Source: Sulfitobacter maritimus
GTDB lineage: Bacteria > Pseudomonadota > Alphaproteobacteria > Rhodobacterales > Rhodobacteraceae
Assembly (NCBI RefSeq): GCF_013346665.1
Contig: NZ_JABVBB010000034.1
Span: 310,001 to 374,000 of the forward strand
Direction of reading: 5' to 3'
DNA: 64,000 bases
The position numbers and the translations under genes are program-made. This document shows positions 16,450 through 21,631 of the stretch, piece by piece; position 1 is the stretch's first letter; each line of letters opens with the position of its first letter. The notes under the pieces are model-generated. The model was not told where the DNA came from. It searched no databases and worked only from the letters and a program-made list of their open reading frames with translations.

Positions 16450-18333
16450 ATGACATTTGCCGGGATCGAGGACCGCAATGCCATCGCGGCGGAAATGCCG
16501 TGGGAAGAGCGTGATGTCGCCAAAACGCTTTACGGGATGCTGAGCAATACGGCTGGAAAATTCCCAAACCACAATGCCGTCAGCTATCAGATTTTCTCCG
16601 GCCCCAAAGACAAGGCCGAGACGCTGAGTTGGAAAGAACTGCATGGCCGGGTCACACAGGCCGCCAACCTGTTCCGCAGCCTTGGCGTCGGGGAAAAAGA
16701 CGTGGTGGCCTATGTGCTGCCGAACTGTAACGAGACCACGATCACCCTGCTGGGCGGGGCCGTGGCGGGGATCGTGAGCCCGATCAACCCGCTGTTGGAC
16801 GCCGAACAGATCGGTGCGATCCTGCGCGAAGTGGGCGCCTCCGTCGTCGTCACCCTGCGGCCTTTCCCGAAAACAGATGTCGCCCAGAAAACCGCCGAGG
16901 CGGTCAAGCTCGCGCCCAATGTGCATACGGTGCTTGAGGTCGATCTCGTCCGCTACCTGACCCCGCCGAAAAGCTGGATCGTGCCGTTGGTCCGGCCCAA
17001 GGGGCTGGCCGACAATCAGGCGACCTACAAGAACTTCAACGCCGAGATCGCGAAACAAAGCACCACGCTTAACTTTGAGGACGTGCAAGAAGACCGCGTG
17101 GCCTGCTACTTCCACACCGGCGGCACCACCGGTCTGCCGAAGGTGGCGCAGCACAAATACTCCGGCCTGATCTACAACGGTTGGCTGGGGCACCGCCTGC
17201 TGTTCACCGAAAACGACAATATTATGTGTCCGCTGCCGCTGTTCCACGTTTTTGCCTGCCATGTGATCCTGATGGCTGCGGTGGCCTCTGGCGCGCATGT
17301 GGTCTTCCCCACGCCGCAGGGCTATCGCGGCGAGGGCGTGTTCGACAACTTCTGGAAGCTCATCGAGCGCTGGAAAATCACCTTTATTATCACCGTACCA
17401 ACGGCGATCTCCGCCAAGATGCAACGACCCATTGATGCCGATGTCAGCACCGTGAAAACCGCGTTTTCCGGCTCCGCGCCGCTGCCGCTGGAACTCTTCC
17501 GCCGGTTTGAGAAGGCCACCGGCGTGACGCTGGTCGAAGGCTATGGTCTGACCGAGGCCACCTGTCTGGTGTCGTGCAACCCCACGGATGGGGTCAAGAA
17601 AGTCGGCTCCATCGGCATCGCCTTTCCCTATTCAGACGTGCGGATCATCAAGAACACGCCGGACGGGCCGATTGACGCAGATGTGGACGAAATTGGCGAG
17701 ATCTGCGTCTCAAACCCCGGTGTCTACGCAGGCCATACCTATGTCGAAGAGGACAAGAACAAAGACCTTTTCTACCACGGCAAATACCTGCGCACCGGCG
17801 ATTTGGGGCGCATCGACAGTGACGGCTATATCTGGATCACTGGCCGGGCCAAAGACCTGATCATTCGCGGCGGTCACAACATCGACCCTGCCGAAATTGA
17901 AGAGGCGCTGCTGGGCCATGAATCCGTGGCCTTTGCCGGTGCCATTGGCCAGCCTGACGCCCATGCGGGCGAGGTGCCCTGCGCCTTTGTCGAACTGGTC
18001 GATGGGGGCGAGGCGCGTGAAGAAGACCTGCTGGCTTTCGTGAAAGAGCGGGTCACAGAACGCGCGGCCCAGCCCAAACACCTCACCATCATGGATGAAC
18101 TGCCCAAAACCGCGGTGGGCAAGATTTTTAAGCCCGATCTGCGCAAACATGCGATCACCCGGATTTACAACGGCAGTCTTGAGAAAGCCGGTTGCGCGGC
18201 GCGGGTGACCGAAGTGACCGACGATAAAAAGCGCGGTCTGGTCGCGCAGGTCACGATGAACGGGGCCAGCCATGAGGATGTGGGCAAGGTGCTGAACGTC
18301 TATACCCGGCCGTGGGAACCTGCGGCGGCCTAA
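16450..18333 (+). CDS. acyl-CoA synthetase (AMP-forming)
   Basis: A 627-residue member of the adenylate-forming superfamily, activating a carboxylic acid to its CoA thioester. The phosphate-binding loop HTGGTTGLPK is at 222-231. EGYGLTEA (A5 motif) and GDLGRIDSDGYIWITGRAKDLIIRGG (A7/A8) follow in order, and the catalytic lysine lies in KTAVGKIFK near the C-terminus. At 627 residues it is longer than most FadD-like enzymes. Substrate cannot be fixed from sequence. A strong terminator follows, so it is probably monocistronic. Confidence 0.9.
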   Translation: MTFAGIEDRNAIAAEMPWEERDVAKTLYGMLSNTAGKFPNHNAVSYQIFSGPKDKAETLSWKELHGRVTQAANLFRSLGVGEKDVVAYVLPNCNETTITLLGGAVAGIVSPINPLLDAEQIGAILREVGASVVVTLRPFPKTDVAQKTAEAVKLAPNVHTVLEVDLVRYLTPPKSWIVPLVRPKGLADNQATYKNFNAEIAKQSTTLNFEDVQEDRVACYFHTGGTTGLPKVAQHKYSGLIYNGWLGHRLLFTENDNIMCPLPLFHVFACHVILMAAVASGAHVVFPTPQGYRGEGVFDNFWKLIERWKITFIITVPTAISAKMQRPIDADVSTVKTAFSGSAPLPLELFRRFEKATGVTLVEGYGLTEATCLVSCNPTDGVKKVGSIGIAFPYSDVRIIKNTPDGPIDADVDEIGEICVSNPGVYAGHTYVEEDKNKDLFYHGKYLRTGDLGRIDSDGYIWITGRAKDLIIRGGHNIDPAEIEEALLGHESVAFAGAIGQPDAHAGEVPCAFVELVDGGEAREEDLLAFVKERVTERAAQPKHLTIMDELPKTAVGKIFKPDLRKHAITRIYNGSLEKAGCAARVTEVTDDKKRGLVAQVTMNGASHEDVGKVLNVYTRPWEPAAA

Positions 18334-18358
18334 CCACCGCACAACGCTGCAATGCACG

Positions 18359-18395
18359 AAAACCGTCGGCCTGAAGGTCGGCGGTTTTTGCTTTT
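18359..18395 (+). terminator. rho-independent terminator of the acyl-CoA synthetase gene
   Basis: An 11-bp stem (AACCGTCGGCC/GGTCGGCGGTT with two G-T pairs) and a TGAA loop are followed by TTTTTGCTTTT. It lies 26 bases after the stop codon. Confidence 0.85.
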
Positions 18396-18496
18396 CTGTA
18401 TGCCATAGTGTTCCGTAACAGCAGGGCGCGGGCGCGCGGCTGCGCTGTTGCCGCCCTTCCGGTCCATTTTCCTAAAACGCTCTTTTAAAAGGCTTT

Positions 18497-18521
18497 CTTG
18501 ACCCTAGGGAAGCCGTCATCT
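18497..18521 (+). promoter_or_regulatory. RpoH-type (heat-shock sigma) promoter upstream of the DUF1127-sRNA locus
   Basis: CTTGAC at 18497-18502 and TCATCT at 18516-18521 are separated by 13 bases. As I recall it, the RpoHI promoter pattern of Rhodobacter sphaeroides is CTTGAA-N13-CCATNT, so this matches at ten of the eleven specified positions. It lies about 120 bases upstream of the first DUF1127 gene. In R. sphaeroides the DUF1127 gene ccaF1 and its CcsR RNAs are transcribed from an RpoH promoter, so the position fits. Confidence 0.6.
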
Positions 18522-18640
18522 GCCTTTCGCTGGGCACATACCGCCTATGCATTAATGGCCGTTTAAAACGGGGTGGGGTGGGCCTATCTCTGCGTTGCAG
18601 CATTGATGTTGCGCCGCAGCATTCGAAAAGGAGCCACTCT

Positions 18641-18862
18641 ATGTCGATGGCAGTTACACAGAACCGCACCGCGTCTTTTGACGCATCCAAGGGGCCACGC
18701 AGCCGCTTTGCGTCGCTCTGGGCCGCTACGACAGAGGCCTGGGCGCGGCGTGCCGCTTACCGCCGCACGCTCAACGAGCTCCATGCGCTCAGCGACCGCG
18801 AATTGGCCGATATCGGCCTCGCGCGCTGTGACATCCGCCGCGTCGCCGGCGAAGAACTTTGA
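18641..18862 (+). CDS. DUF1127 domain protein (CcaF1-like)
   Basis: A 73-residue basic protein with the DUF1127 domain at its C-terminus (YRRTLNELHALSDRELADIGL..CDIRRVA). The family is small, Arg-rich and, in R. sphaeroides, includes the RNA-binding protein CcaF1 encoded immediately upstream of the CcsR small RNAs. AAAAGGAG stands upstream of the ATG at 18641. A second DUF1127-like gene follows 12 bases later, and then the CCTCCTCC hairpins. Together they probably form one stress-induced transcript. Confidence 0.88.
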   Translation: MSMAVTQNRTASFDASKGPRSRFASLWAATTEAWARRAAYRRTLNELHALSDRELADIGLARCDIRRVAGEEL

Positions 18863-18874
18863 AGGATTGAACCG

Positions 18875-19135
18875 ATGAACAACCACAACACCCTCACCGC
18901 CTCCCATGGCGCACCGCTGCGTGACCTTCTGGCCAACCTGTCGGCTGGCGCTGGCACATTCGGCAGCAAGCTGCGCACAGGCTTTGGCAACGCGATCACG
19001 CATATGCAAATCTCGCGGATGCAGTCCGTGCTGAACGGCATGAGCGATGAGCAGCTTGCCACCGCCGGGATCACCCGCAAAGACATCCCCCAGCACGCCC
19101 GCGCGCTGGTGCTTGACGAATACGACGGTCTGTAA
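18875..19135 (+). CDS. second, divergent DUF1127-like protein
   Basis: An 86-residue protein whose second half (ISRMQSVLNGMSDEQLATAGITRKDIPQHA) follows the DUF1127 pattern but lacks its Arg-rich start. It has a longer N-terminal extension rich in Gly, Ala and Leu. GAAGGATT precedes the ATG. It lies between the canonical DUF1127 gene and the four CCTCCTCC hairpins. Its role is unknown; RNA binding or oligomerisation with its neighbour is possible. Confidence 0.75.
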   Translation: MNNHNTLTASHGAPLRDLLANLSAGAGTFGSKLRTGFGNAITHMQISRMQSVLNGMSDEQLATAGITRKDIPQHARALVLDEYDGL

Positions 19136-19162
19136 GCTTCGCGCTACTGACCTTCCCCAGAT

Positions 19163-19194
19163 CAATGCACGCCCGTCCTCCCCGGGTGGCATTG
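19163..19194 (+). ncRNA. CcsR/cuckoo-type small RNA element 1
   Basis: A 12-bp hairpin (CAATGC plus CGCCCG paired with CGGGTG plus GCATTG, one bulged A) displays loop TCCTCCC. It is the first of four such hairpins after the DUF1127 genes. The CCUCCUCC loop is the hallmark of Rhodobacter CcsR and related 'cuckoo' RNAs, which carry an anti-Shine-Dalgarno-like sequence. Confidence 0.8.
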
Positions 19195-19197
19195 TCA

Positions 19198-19238
19198 GGT
19201 GTCGGACCCGGGTCCTCCTCCCGCGCTGATCCGACGCC
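19198..19238 (+). ncRNA. CcsR/cuckoo-type small RNA element 2
   Basis: A 9-bp stem GGTGTCGGA/TCCGACGCC (one G-T pair) encloses a large loop containing TCCTCCTCCC. An inner CGGG/CCCG helix could present TCCTCCT as the apical loop. Confidence 0.8.
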
Positions 19239-19244
19239 GCATCT

Positions 19245-19271
19245 TAACGGTCCTCCTCCCCGGACCCGTTA
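19245..19271 (+). ncRNA. CcsR/cuckoo-type small RNA element 3
   Basis: The stem TAACGG plus TCC pairs with GGA plus CCGTTA, with one bulged C, and displays loop TCCTCCCC. It is the third CCTCCTCC-loop hairpin in the array. Confidence 0.8.
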
Positions 19272-19275
19272 TACC

Positions 19276-19318
19276 GGCCGGCAAGCTTCCTCCCTAGCTT
19301 GTCGGCCTTTGCTTTTTT
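19276..19318 (+). ncRNA. CcsR/cuckoo-type element 4, which is also the terminator
   Basis: A 12-bp stem GGCCGGCAAGCT/AGCTTGTCGGCC displays loop TCCTCCCT and is followed by TTTGCTTTTTT. It is therefore both the fourth CCTCCC-loop hairpin and a strong rho-independent terminator for the whole DUF1127-sRNA transcript. Confidence 0.88.
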
Positions 19319-19393
19319 GGTCCGCACTGTGAGATCAGAGAAGGCTGCCTGCCTCCGCCGAACCCCCACCGAAACTGATTTTCGCCAGAAAGG

Positions 19394-19840
19394 TTAGGGG
19401 GCCGCGCTGTCGAGCCAGATTGTGACCGGGCCGTCATTGGTCAAGGCCACGGACATATCCGCGCCGAAGCGGCCCATTTCCACCGGAACACCAAGCGTGC
19501 CAAGGTGCTGGGCAAAGACCTCATAGAGCGCTTCGGCAATTTCAGGTTTCGCCGCACCGGAAAATCCCGGACGGTTACCGCGCGACGTATCGGCGGCAAG
19601 GGTGAATTGGCTCACCACCAAGGCGGCCCCACCAGTTTGGACAAGGCTTAGGTTCATCTTGCCCCCGTCATCTTTGAACAACCGCAGTTTTGAGATTTTG
19701 ACCGCCAGTTTCTCGGCGGTCTCGGCGGTGTCATCGGGCATAGCGCAAACGAGGATCAACAGGCCCGGCCCGATCTGACCAACCACATCTCCCTCGACCG
19801 TGACCGACGCGTCAGTCACCCGTTGCAAAAGCGCGCGCAT
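19394..19840 (-). CDS. dtd: D-aminoacyl-tRNA deacylase
   Basis: A 148-residue Dtd that hydrolyses D-amino acids (and glycine on tRNA-Ala) from mischarged tRNAs. The N-terminal [13 protein letters not shown], the conserved SQFTL motif near residues 77-81 and the C-terminal [12 protein letters not shown] (Gly-cisPro type motif) are all present. The start at 19840 was chosen because it gives the family N-terminus. The reading frame is open further upstream only as an antisense-like extension over the nitroreductase gene. It is the last gene of a long minus-strand operon, one base after nitroreductase. Confidence 0.94.
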
Positions 19841-19841
19841 G

Positions 19842-20519
19842 TCAGTCTTTCCAATATATAATGGCCTCAGCCGTCGCCCGTTCGGTGCGAAAGCCATTGG
19901 CGGGGTGGTCGGGGTCGGCATAGCCGAACGAGATCGCACAGAGCACCAGCCGGTCATCCGGCAGGCCAAGATGGTCGCGTACCAGCGGGGCGTAGGAGGC
20001 AATGGCAGCCTGCGGAATGCTCGCCACCCCAAGCGCCGTGGCCGCGAGGGTGAAGGCGGTCACGAAGCCGCCGCAGTCCATGGCGCCGTAAGGGCCAAGT
20101 TCGGCGGGGGAAGTGACAATCGCCACATGGGGCGCATCGAACAGCGCAAAGTTGCGCAGCATCTGCGCTTTGCGGGCGGCACGGTCGGATTTCTCAATCC
20201 CCACCGCGTCATAAAGCTGGAAACCACAGGTGCGCCGCCGCTCAGCGTAGGCGCCCGAGTAGCCCGTGGGCCACGGCAGGTCCGGTTCCACCGGGGCATC
20301 GCTGCTTGCCGCGTCGAGCAGGGCCGTGCGGAACCGTTCGGTGGCATCGTCCCGCGTGATGGTAAGCTGCCAAGGCTGCGCGTTGCACCATGACGGCACA
20401 TGGCGTGCGGCGCTGACGATCTGGGTGATCGTGGCCTCCGGCAGCGGATCAGGCCGAAAGGCGCGGCAGGAATAGCGGGCGCGCAGAAGGTCACAGAAGG
20501 CGTCGTAGGTTTCGGTCAT
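19842..20519 (-). CDS. nitroreductase family protein
   Basis: A 225-residue FMN-dependent nitroreductase-fold protein. The RYSCRAF segment near the N-terminus (FMN phosphate binding), the PSWCNAQPW substrate-side motif (about 42-50) and the C-terminal [16 protein letters not shown] are typical. It probably reduces nitro or quinone compounds with NAD(P)H; the substrate is unknown. Its start overlaps the stop of the upstream zinc-ribbon gene by four bases, so it belongs to the TelA/XpaC operon at least transcriptionally. Confidence 0.9.
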
Positions 20520-21631
20520 TGCTGCTGCGCCACGAAATAGCCGACGATGGCGGCGGCGATCAGCCCCAGCACCACGACGATGGTAATTTTGATCGCGGAA
20601 TAGGGCCGTTCGCCCTGCACCTTGCCGGAGTGGCCGTTGACCACAAAGCGATAGGTCTTGCCACGGTATTTATAGGCCGCAAGCCAGACCGGCAGCAGGA
20701 TATGTTTAAAGGTCACATCGCTCACCTGCGTTTGAATGTCATGCACCCGCTGGCGGTCGCCGCCGATGTCGAATTTCACATCGCGCTCAATCACCCGGTC
20801 CATATGGGCGCGGACTTGGGCGAAGCCTTCTTCCAATGAGACACCGTAAGCCTCAGCGCGGAACCCGGCGAGGTATTCCGGCGCATAGGGTTCCAGCGAC
20901 GACAGGTCCCAAGGATGCAGTGCATCGGTGTGTTTCTTGGGCAGGGAGCGCGAGGCCAACACCAGCACGTCATCAAAGAACCGCGCCACCCGGCCCGACG
21001 CCGCCCGCCAGCGCACCTTTGGCACCTGTTGCCGCACCCGCTTACCGTTGCGCATAACTGTCTGGGTCACGTAATAGACCGTGCCACGCTCGCCCCGGTA
21101 GCTGGAGGCCGTCTGCGCGTCATAGGTCCAGTATGGCACGTAAATCCCCTGCATTTTCCGTCCCTTACGCGCGTATTGCTGCAAGCCGTTGGGGGCGAAC
21201 CAAAGGCTGCCGAGCCAGTCTTTCATCGCATTGCGGGCGCTTTGTTCGGATTGGGCAAAGGGCAGCACGGCGCGGGGTTTGATATGGCGGTTGGTGCCGG
21301 TGTCGACCACGATAGGCGTGGCGCAGAAGGGGCATTCAGTGGCGTGTTTGCCTGGTTCAAATTCCACCTGCGCGGCGCAGTTAGGGCAGGTGGTGACGCG
21401 GGTTTCCTCCATTTCGGCGGCAGGCAGGGCGGCTTGCAACCCGGCGCGGAAATCTTGCTCAGCGATGGCTTCCGCATGGCGGCCCGTGCCGTCGATCGGC
21501 TCCACATTGCCACAGTGATCGCAGACCAGCCGCGACTGCGCAGGGTCAAAGCGCATGTCCGAGCCGCAGGTGTCGCAGGGGAAACGGTGTTCTTCGAGCG
21601 GGGCCGCGGGGGGCTGGTCAGGAGAGGGCAT
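20516..21631 (-). CDS. TFIIB-type zinc-ribbon membrane protein (YdjG-like)
   Basis: A 371-residue protein. Two zinc ribbons (Cys19, 22, 37, 40 and Cys82, 85, 100, 103) begin the chain. A long conserved soluble domain follows (YVPYWTYDAQTASSYRGERG near 165-184; HILLPVWLAAYKYRGKTYRFVVNGHSGKVQGERPYSA near 305-341). One C-terminal transmembrane helix covers about 343-366. Proteins of this class are often annotated as helicase- or phage-replication-like, but that is misleading. In Bacillus subtilis the homologous YdjG acts with YdjH and YdjI at the membrane to localise PspA. It lies downstream of a YdjI-like gene here. Confidence 0.8.
   Translation of the reverse strand: MPSPDQPPAAPLEEHRFPCDTCGSDMRFDPAQSRLVCDHCGNVEPIDGTGRHAEAIAEQDFRAGLQAALPAAEMEETRVTTCPNCAAQVEFEPGKHATECPFCATPIVVDTGTNRHIKPRAVLPFAQSEQSARNAMKDWLGSLWFAPNGLQQYARKGRKMQGIYVPYWTYDAQTASSYRGERGTVYYVTQTVMRNGKRVRQQVPKVRWRAASGRVARFFDDVLVLASRSLPKKHTDALHPWDLSSLEPYAPEYLAGFRAEAYGVSLEEGFAQVRAHMDRVIERDVKFDIGGDRQRVHDIQTQVSDVTFKHILLPVWLAAYKYRGKTYRFVVNGHSGKVQGERPYSAIKITIVVVLGLIAAAIVGYFVAQQQ

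Follow-up and report, generated by a model that had tools for sequence, protein, structure and literature searches.

Positions 18641-19318 of the window (the whole stretch of Sulfitobacter maritimus DNA that was analyzed, 64,000 nucleotides) contain two small genes, ORF1 (DUF1127) and ORF2, followed by four hairpins that expose UCCUCCC in their loops; the fourth hairpin is the terminator (Table 1). This region is a real CcsR/cuckoo (alpha-r14-type) locus and represents a two-protein variant of a known RNA type. This version adds a second protein, which evolves on its own, and many relatives also have a regulator gene alongside.

Table 1. Features of the two-protein CcsR-type locus (window coordinates)
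Feature	Position	Strand	Remarks
Likely promoter core	18562-18589	+	Box CTATCT (18584-18589), with TTT (18562-18564) as the triplet 19 nt before it
First TGC-N6-GCA site, TGCGTTGCAGCA	18591-18602	+	Most columns invariant in 25 aligned rows
Second TGC-N6-GCA site, TGCGCCGCAGCA	18610-18621	+	Starts 19 nt after the first
ORF1	18641-18862	+	73-aa basic DUF1127 protein; PF06568 50.6 bits (cut-off 23.3), net charge +3
ORF2	18875-19135	+	86 aa; belongs to a family of its own, akin to DUF1127 in its C-terminal half
Hairpin 1	19163-19194	+	Loop TCCTCCC; from fold and motif position
Hairpin 2	19198-19238	+	Loop with CCTCCTCCC; from fold and covariation
Hairpin 3	19245-19271	+	Loop with CCTCCTCCC, near-invariant stem TTAACGG/CCGTTA; from fold and covariation
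Hairpin 4	19276-19307	+	Loop TCCTCCC, intrinsic terminator stem; from fold and covariation
T-rich tract behind hairpin 4	19308-19318	+	

The hairpin array and the assignment of the locus

CcsR/cuckoo/alpha-r14 RNAs are composed of two to four adjoining hairpins and, as a class, are induced by stress and cut by RNase E. The CcsR class is recognized by adjoining hairpins with CCUCCUCCC loops and by a short DUF1127 gene alongside (CIN1). At the window locus we found such a gene, present also in relatives, and four adjoining hairpins, all with TCCTCCC in the loop. The motif occurs four times in 120 nt (at 19176, 19216, 19254 and 19288), and the complete CCTCCTCCC is found only at 19214 and 19252, in hairpins 2 and 3. 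For the region 19136-19320 the computed folding energy is -77 kcal/mol (z = -5.7), and none of 200 shuffled sequences folds as well. Three TCCTCCC motifs spaced 18-48 nt apart are present in 51 of 62 Sulfitobacter genomes when either kind of CcsR locus is counted, and in none of the 62 in the reversed control. The occurrence of CCTCCTCC alone is weak evidence, as the window has five copies against 1.85 expected and 3 of 100 shuffles have at least five.

We compared 30 two-gene loci, several of which are near-copies of one another. Covariation was analyzed in the 18 of them that share the three-hairpin layout; the alignment retains one row (L054) that is misaligned by one column in hairpin 4. 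In hairpins 2-4, 95.9% of the 539 cells are paired, compared with 26-42% when the structure is slid along the alignment. Double changes are seen in 15 of the 30 pairs, and the number of doubly changed cells (55) far exceeds that in shuffles (19.5; none of 500 reached it). The count of further pair types in the same hairpins is not above shuffles (362/500).

The first-pass annotation of this DNA described four hairpins with TCCTCC-type loops, the fourth being the terminator, and held that stems vary while loops are constant. The terminator assignment agrees with the T-rich tract directly behind hairpin 4. TCCTCCC is indeed present in all four window loops, but the loop of hairpin 1 lacks the motif in S. 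delicatus (L025) and in loci L002, L004, L005, L006 and L026, so that three motif hairpins are conserved, not four. The contrast between stems and loops likewise applies only in part. Mean information in the loops of hairpins 2, 3 and 4 is 1.61, 1.35 and 1.81 bits, respectively, compared with 1.45 bits over all stem columns; thus the loop is clearly more conserved than the stem in hairpin 4, and the order is reversed in hairpin 3, where four of the six pairs are invariant. Hairpins 2 and 4 do have variable stems, with compensating changes.

These patterns bear on whether the hairpins might act only in cis, as a 3' UTR for mRNA stability and termination, without giving rise to any trans-acting RNA. 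Stable structures do protect mRNA ends, and hairpin 4 is a terminator. However, a purely structural role would need neither the stronger retention of loop letters (1.81 bits) than of the stem (1.32 bits) in hairpin 4 nor the compensation in that stem, and at two loci (L158 and L161) the hairpins are retained without the genes. Moreover, the founder of the alpha-r14 family, NfeR1, works in trans (PMC10746234). We therefore regard a purely cis-acting array as improbable.

The covariance-model search proposed by the first-pass annotation brought up both expected families, each below its gathering cut-off. Over positions 17000-21000 it returned four matches, the best two being ar14 (29.7 bits, cut-off 58.8) and CcsR1 (20.9 bits, cut-off 65.3). 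Even the best scores over the 15 loci searched were only 49.5 (ar14) and 43.6 (CcsR1), suggesting that both Rfam models fit these bacteria poorly. Because of the sub-threshold scores, we call the locus CcsR-type and not an Rfam member. Its CcsR/cuckoo-type identity, as initially proposed, is backed by the structure, the covariation, the position behind a DUF1127 gene and the sub-threshold ar14 and CcsR1 matches taken together.

The more specific proposal that the locus matches ccaF1-CcsR1-4 of R. sphaeroides holds in kind only. The same genome has a second CcsR locus with a single protein gene (L065, contig C28, 540.6-541.5 kb), in which a 70-aa DUF1127 gene stands between two arrays of four hairpins: the one in front ends in a terminator of its own, and the one behind has CCTCCC-type loops and is likewise followed by a terminator. 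Its Rfam scores (ar14 49.5, CcsR1 41.5) are above those of the window locus, although still below the cut-offs, and the DUF1127 protein of the window falls outside the clade of the one-protein-locus type. At L065 (2097-3000), the upstream array and the DUF1127 gene are each preceded by their own pair of TGC sites. Four other DUF1127 genes of the genome score above the cut-off (L095-L098); within the 1.6-1.8 kb around each there is no TGC site, and a single TCCTCC is found in all four regions together, on the strand opposite to the gene.

ORF1 and ORF2 and their distribution

ORF1 passes the PF06568 gathering score, while ORF2 misses it with 13.7 bits. Nevertheless, 7 of 11 aligned ORF2 members have a Pfam DUF1127 match at E≤1 (the best at 1.9e-5), and profile-profile comparison finds a relationship between the ORF2 family and DUF1127 that spans 30 C-terminal columns (95.6%, E 1.2e-8). 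The earlier view of ORF2 as a second, divergent DUF1127-like gene is thereby borne out. The two genes are separated by 12 nt in the window and overlap in several relatives. For ORF2, dN/dS is 0.07-0.57 in all 13 pairs compared. We conclude that ORF2 is a genuine gene under purifying selection, and that the ORF2 proteins make up one old family, whose distant kinship is with the C-terminal half of DUF1127.

In a tree of 77 proteins (83 columns, with many forks unresolved), from which identical sequences and the other DUF1127 proteins of the window genome were omitted, the 30 ORF2 sequences form one clade (100/100). Another clade (98/83) holds the DUF1127 proteins from one-protein loci, 17 distinct sequences, and the 30 ORF1 sequences make up a grade. 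As the one-protein-locus DUF1127 proteins and ORF2 are clades and ORF1 is a grade, the window locus is best described as a paralogous variant and not as a ccaF1 locus with an insertion. The same tree bears on the idea that ORF2 is just an ordinary recent duplicate of ORF1 with no role of its own. ORF2 does adjoin ORF1, and the core MSDxxLxxxGIxRxDI is common to both, yet its clade stands apart from both ORF1 and the one-protein-locus rows, which rules out recent duplication as its origin. In addition, most aligned members share a C-terminus of their own, EYDGL, and selection acts to preserve the protein. We consider a roleless duplicate very unlikely.

The two proteins differ in composition. 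Over 30 sequences each, the median net charge is +2 with 5 arginines for ORF2, and +5 with 11 arginines for ORF1; the ORF2 protein of the window has a net charge of 0. RNA binding by CcaF1 has been tied by its authors to the arginine-rich character of the protein (PMC12501420). Being less basic and poorer in arginine, ORF2 would thus be the poorer RNA-binding candidate. The same paper reports that CcaF1 can take the place of DUF1127 proteins of Agrobacterium in a function based on protein-protein contact, and RNA binding may therefore not be the main or sole job of ORF1. AlphaFold models ORF2 poorly (mean pLDDT 61.6), placing helices at residues 16-54, 58-63 and 68-83.

According to the profile search, ORF2 is present in 25 of the 62 Sulfitobacter genomes, at 28 places. 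ORF1 lies in front at 26 of these places, and at least one motif hairpin lies behind, likewise at 26 (25 by script and L122, which the script missed and where ORF1 scores 104.7 bits). Thirteen of the places have a LysR-type regulator, 10 (including the window) are situated between an AMP-binding gene and dtd, and 5 show neither arrangement. In L105 (S. brevis) and L113 (S. undariae), ORF2 occurs without ORF1, the LysR gene or hairpins; both retain a TGC site 40-50 nt before ORF2.

Outside the genus, ORF2 is rare. A sample of 395 genomes from the family gave matches at E≤1e-5 in 40; the weak ones resemble ordinary DUF1127 genes, and only nine genomes outside Sulfitobacter reach at least 61 bits. 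In 387 sampled genomes of the class, only two match at E≤1e-8, both of them Sulfitobacter. Of 15 further ORF2 loci (13 from the family search and 2 named), 11 have both ORF1 and hairpins, and the four without ORF1 are the weakest ORF2 matches (48-58 bits). Among named contigs, 8 of the 10 loci found belong to Sulfitobacter; protein identity to S. delicatus is 71%.

The control region and the divergent LysR-type gene

An RpoH promoter, CTTGAC-N13-TCATCT, was previously suggested at 18497-18521. The letters are there (CTTGAC at 18497, TCATCT at 18516), but the N13 gap fits neither consensus spacing quoted for S. meliloti, N16 for RpoH1 and N17 for RpoD (PMC8844928). Nor is the element conserved: S. 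delicatus keeps only CTTGAC, and the group of L002, L004-L006 and L026 keeps neither part. We therefore do not retain this promoter. What is conserved lies downstream, in 18584-18621: a CTAYCT-like ([CG]TA-type) box and, behind it, TGC-N6-GCA sites. A TTG precedes the box at a distance of exactly 19 nt in 14 of the 30 two-gene loci; TTT or TTC takes its place in 8, including the window, and the other 8 have a different triplet or no box. The TTG-N19 spacing fits both the RpoD and the RpoH1 consensus of S. meliloti (PMC8844928) and so does not separate the two.

The TGC sites, which the first-pass annotation had missed, follow the promoter-like box in most two-gene loci. Searching for TGC-N6/7-GCA before ORF1 (as TGC-N3/4-GCRGCA), we found at least one site in 29 of the 30 loci and two in 25. 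One-protein loci have a related pair of sites, TGCATRGCAGCATTG ... ATTGTGCANNNGCAGCA. The pattern of this pair occurs in 51 of the 62 genomes (reversed control 0/62), mostly at hairpin loci and in a few instances elsewhere, as judged by comparing coordinates by eye; the two sites of the window itself do not fit it.

In 18 of the 30 two-gene loci, a divergent LysR-type frame of 293-310 aa (cut by the locus end in L063) begins 128-150 nt upstream of ORF1. All three frames tested contain the Pfam domains HTH_1 and LysR_substrate. Among named models the protein comes closest to TtdR and YafC, with scores far under the cut-offs, and 3mz1 is its best match in the PDB. At least one TGC site is located between the LysR-type gene and ORF1 in 17 of these 18 loci, the exception being L071, which has none.

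The position of the sites just after a -10-like box raises the question of whether the pair is a hairpin in the 5' UTR RNA and not a DNA operator. In the alignment of the pair, which covers 25 of the 30 loci (L007, L028 and L071 have no close pair; L005 and L006 are identical to rows kept), most rows contain an imperfect inverted repeat of 11 bp whose loop measures about 7-12 nt, and the mean folding z is -2.3 over the 25 rows. However, covariation is not above shuffles, that is, the sequence is kept rather than the pairing. The placement of sites between divergent genes in nearly all LysR-bearing loci and their likeness to LsrB/VtlR boxes also speak against an RNA element. We consider the 5' UTR hairpin a possibility, albeit a doubtful one, and favor a DNA operator.

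The published LsrB/VtlR box has been given as CAATGCAGCCATGCA (PMC12595884), as GCAT-N3-TG-N3-T (PMC7486931, PMC8844928) and, before NfeR1, as TGCA-N6-GCAT (PMC10746234). The window sites, being TGC-N6-GCA starting with TGCG, do not match the last two of these boxes exactly. One paper calls LsrB 'unique to Rhizobiales' in a section title (PMC11975290), whereas another reports good conservation of the trxB-vtlR order across the class (PMC7486931). We considered an LsrB orthologue next to trxB and rejected it, as trxB of the window genome has no LysR neighbor.

Matches to the LysR-type protein over the 62 Sulfitobacter genomes are bimodal: 18 reach at least 512 bits, in 17 genomes, and the rest stay below 226. 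Thirteen of the 18 strong matches adjoin an ORF1-ORF2 locus. The window genome has no orthologue of the regulator (best match 214 bits), and S. delicatus likewise has none in the class of at least 512 bits. The remaining five strong matches (L157-L161) are located at loci without a DUF1127 or ORF2 frame. Two of these, L158 and L161, combine the LysR gene with two TGC sites and motif hairpins. Since they keep regulator, sites and hairpins without the DUF1127 and ORF2 proteins, those proteins are apparently not always needed. L159 has two TGC sites, and L157 and L160 have one each; none of these three has a hairpin array.

By eye, we also noticed a GNAT-acetyltransferase-like frame behind some two-hairpin loci (L016, L018 at about 1755-2453, and L161) and a transposase-like frame beside the remnant L159. 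The set of LysR, two DUF1127 genes and hairpins might be mobile, as hinted at by L159 and by the presence of the set on a plasmid with transposase genes.

Proposed function and relation to known systems

We think it probable that the locus gives rise to one transcript with trans-acting RNAs that repress at GGAGG-type sites and with two co-expressed small proteins, all under the control of the TGC-N6-GCA sites. We infer that a single transcript would start near 18595 and comprise ORF1, ORF2 and then the CcsR/cuckoo hairpin string. RNase E would cut its 3' part into short, stable RNAs, whose UCCUCCC/CCUCCUCCC loops may repress the translation of other mRNAs by pairing with their GGAGG-type ribosome-binding sites. 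ORF1 would be a CcaF1-like RNA-binding maturation factor, and ORF2 a less basic partner or modulator. The roles given here to the RNAs, ORF1 and ORF2 are suggested by analogy with NfeR1 and CcsR/CcaF1. The TGC-N6-GCA sites would control transcription, in many relatives via the divergent LysR-type regulator; in the window lineage, which has no such gene, another regulator would have to use them.

Alternatively, the CCUCC loops, which resemble the anti-Shine-Dalgarno sequence of the 16S end, could act as mimics that titrate a protein or the ribosome, leaving no chosen mRNAs as targets. Arrays of equal loops would suit such a sponge, as would that resemblance and the reported binding of RNA by CcaF1 (PMC10253847). 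Against it stands NfeR1, the alpha-r14 founder, which silences defined mRNAs via three redundant CCUCCUCCC motifs that pair at translation starts (PMC10746234). Titration seems to us distinctly unlikely, and we retain pairing with mRNAs as the preferred reading.

Scanning the genome for GGGAGGAG-N3-10-ATG gave 12 rows, compared with 3 for the reversed control; two of the 12 are one place, and two are antisense to the CcsR loci themselves. Four of the 12 lie at starts of genes with a Pfam match, coding for two TRAP solute-binding proteins, a 2Fe-2S oxidoreductase and a DUF2147 protein. At one place in the genome (L127/L128, C13:16.1-16.9 kb), a TRAP solute-binding gene and a 2Fe-2S oxidoreductase gene are divergent, with GGGAGGAG just before each start codon. 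The TRAP candidates agree in kind with the transporter targets of NfeR1, which is a hint only, as they are too few to count as evidence. In L014, L016 and L018-L020, we observed a common GGGAGCGCCAATGC between two hairpins (with one letter different in L018). It is partly complementary to the CTCCC loop and is possibly an internal decoy or a fold switch.

On a broader scale, a more speculative reading, which we would not call likely, is that a self-contained regulatory cassette is scattered through the Rhodobacteraceae. It would combine a LysR regulator of its own with a shared divergent operator, a DUF1127 protein that binds RNA, ORF2 as the specialized partner of that protein, anti-Shine-Dalgarno RNAs and sometimes a GNAT-like gene. 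The window lineage would have lost the regulator and would now be under the control system of the other CcsR locus. If it is true, one signal would drive two sets of anti-Shine-Dalgarno RNAs in this genome. In any case, cuckoo RNA loci gain a second co-inherited protein and a neighboring regulator, which offer a handle on the role of small DUF1127 proteins beside cuckoo RNAs and on the signal that switches the RNAs on. They also bear on whether alphaproteobacteria beyond the rhizobia, where this is known, place anti-Shine-Dalgarno RNAs under LysR-type control. Loci that are without the proteins, the regulator or the RNAs represent natural deletion experiments. In the literature, titles and abstract openings contained nothing evidently concerned with a two-DUF1127 CcsR locus or its LysR gene, within a search that lay outside the founding cuckoo, CcsR and CcaF1 papers.

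Among the known systems, ccaF1-CcsR1-4 of R. sphaeroides is similar in that a DUF1127 gene is co-transcribed with CcsR RNAs and a terminator, the precursor being cut by RNase E (PMC10253847). CcaF1 is described there as an RNA-binding protein that aids CcsR maturation. The differences are that ccaF1-CcsR1-4 has one protein gene and the window locus two, that an RpoHI/RpoHII promoter is used there whereas no clear RpoH -35 is seen here, and that the window genome additionally has a separate one-protein locus.

NfeR1/alpha-r14 (RF02344) of Sinorhizobium meliloti is similar in its three CCUCCUCCC hairpins; their stems are variable, as are those of hairpins 2 and 4 here. It is activated by the LysR-type LsrB, with a TGCA-N6-GCAT box upstream (PMC10746234). 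NfeR1 is transcribed from a promoter of its own as a 123-nt RNA, whereas the window RNAs come after two genes. The putative LysR-type control of sRNAs and small DUF1127 proteins has a parallel in the VtlR/LsrB targets, namely AbcR2 and DUF1127 genes in Brucella and AbcR1 in Agrobacterium and Sinorhizobium. Read as its reverse complement, the VtlR/LsrB motif CAATGCAGCCATGCA agrees in 14 of 15 letters with TGCATGGCAGCATTG of the one-protein Sulfitobacter loci. The divergent regulator of the relatives, however, is nearest to the TtdR and YafC models, far below every cut-off.

A plasmid of Pseudorhodobacter turbinis (NZ_CP039966, L175) is annotated with the LysR-DUF1127-DUF1127 order and has the same promoter element, with two CTCCTCCC hairpins behind the genes; there (NZ_CP039966.1, 13568-21834) the set adjoins transposase genes. 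It differs from the window locus in its plasmid location, in the presence of the LysR gene and in having two motif hairpins instead of four.
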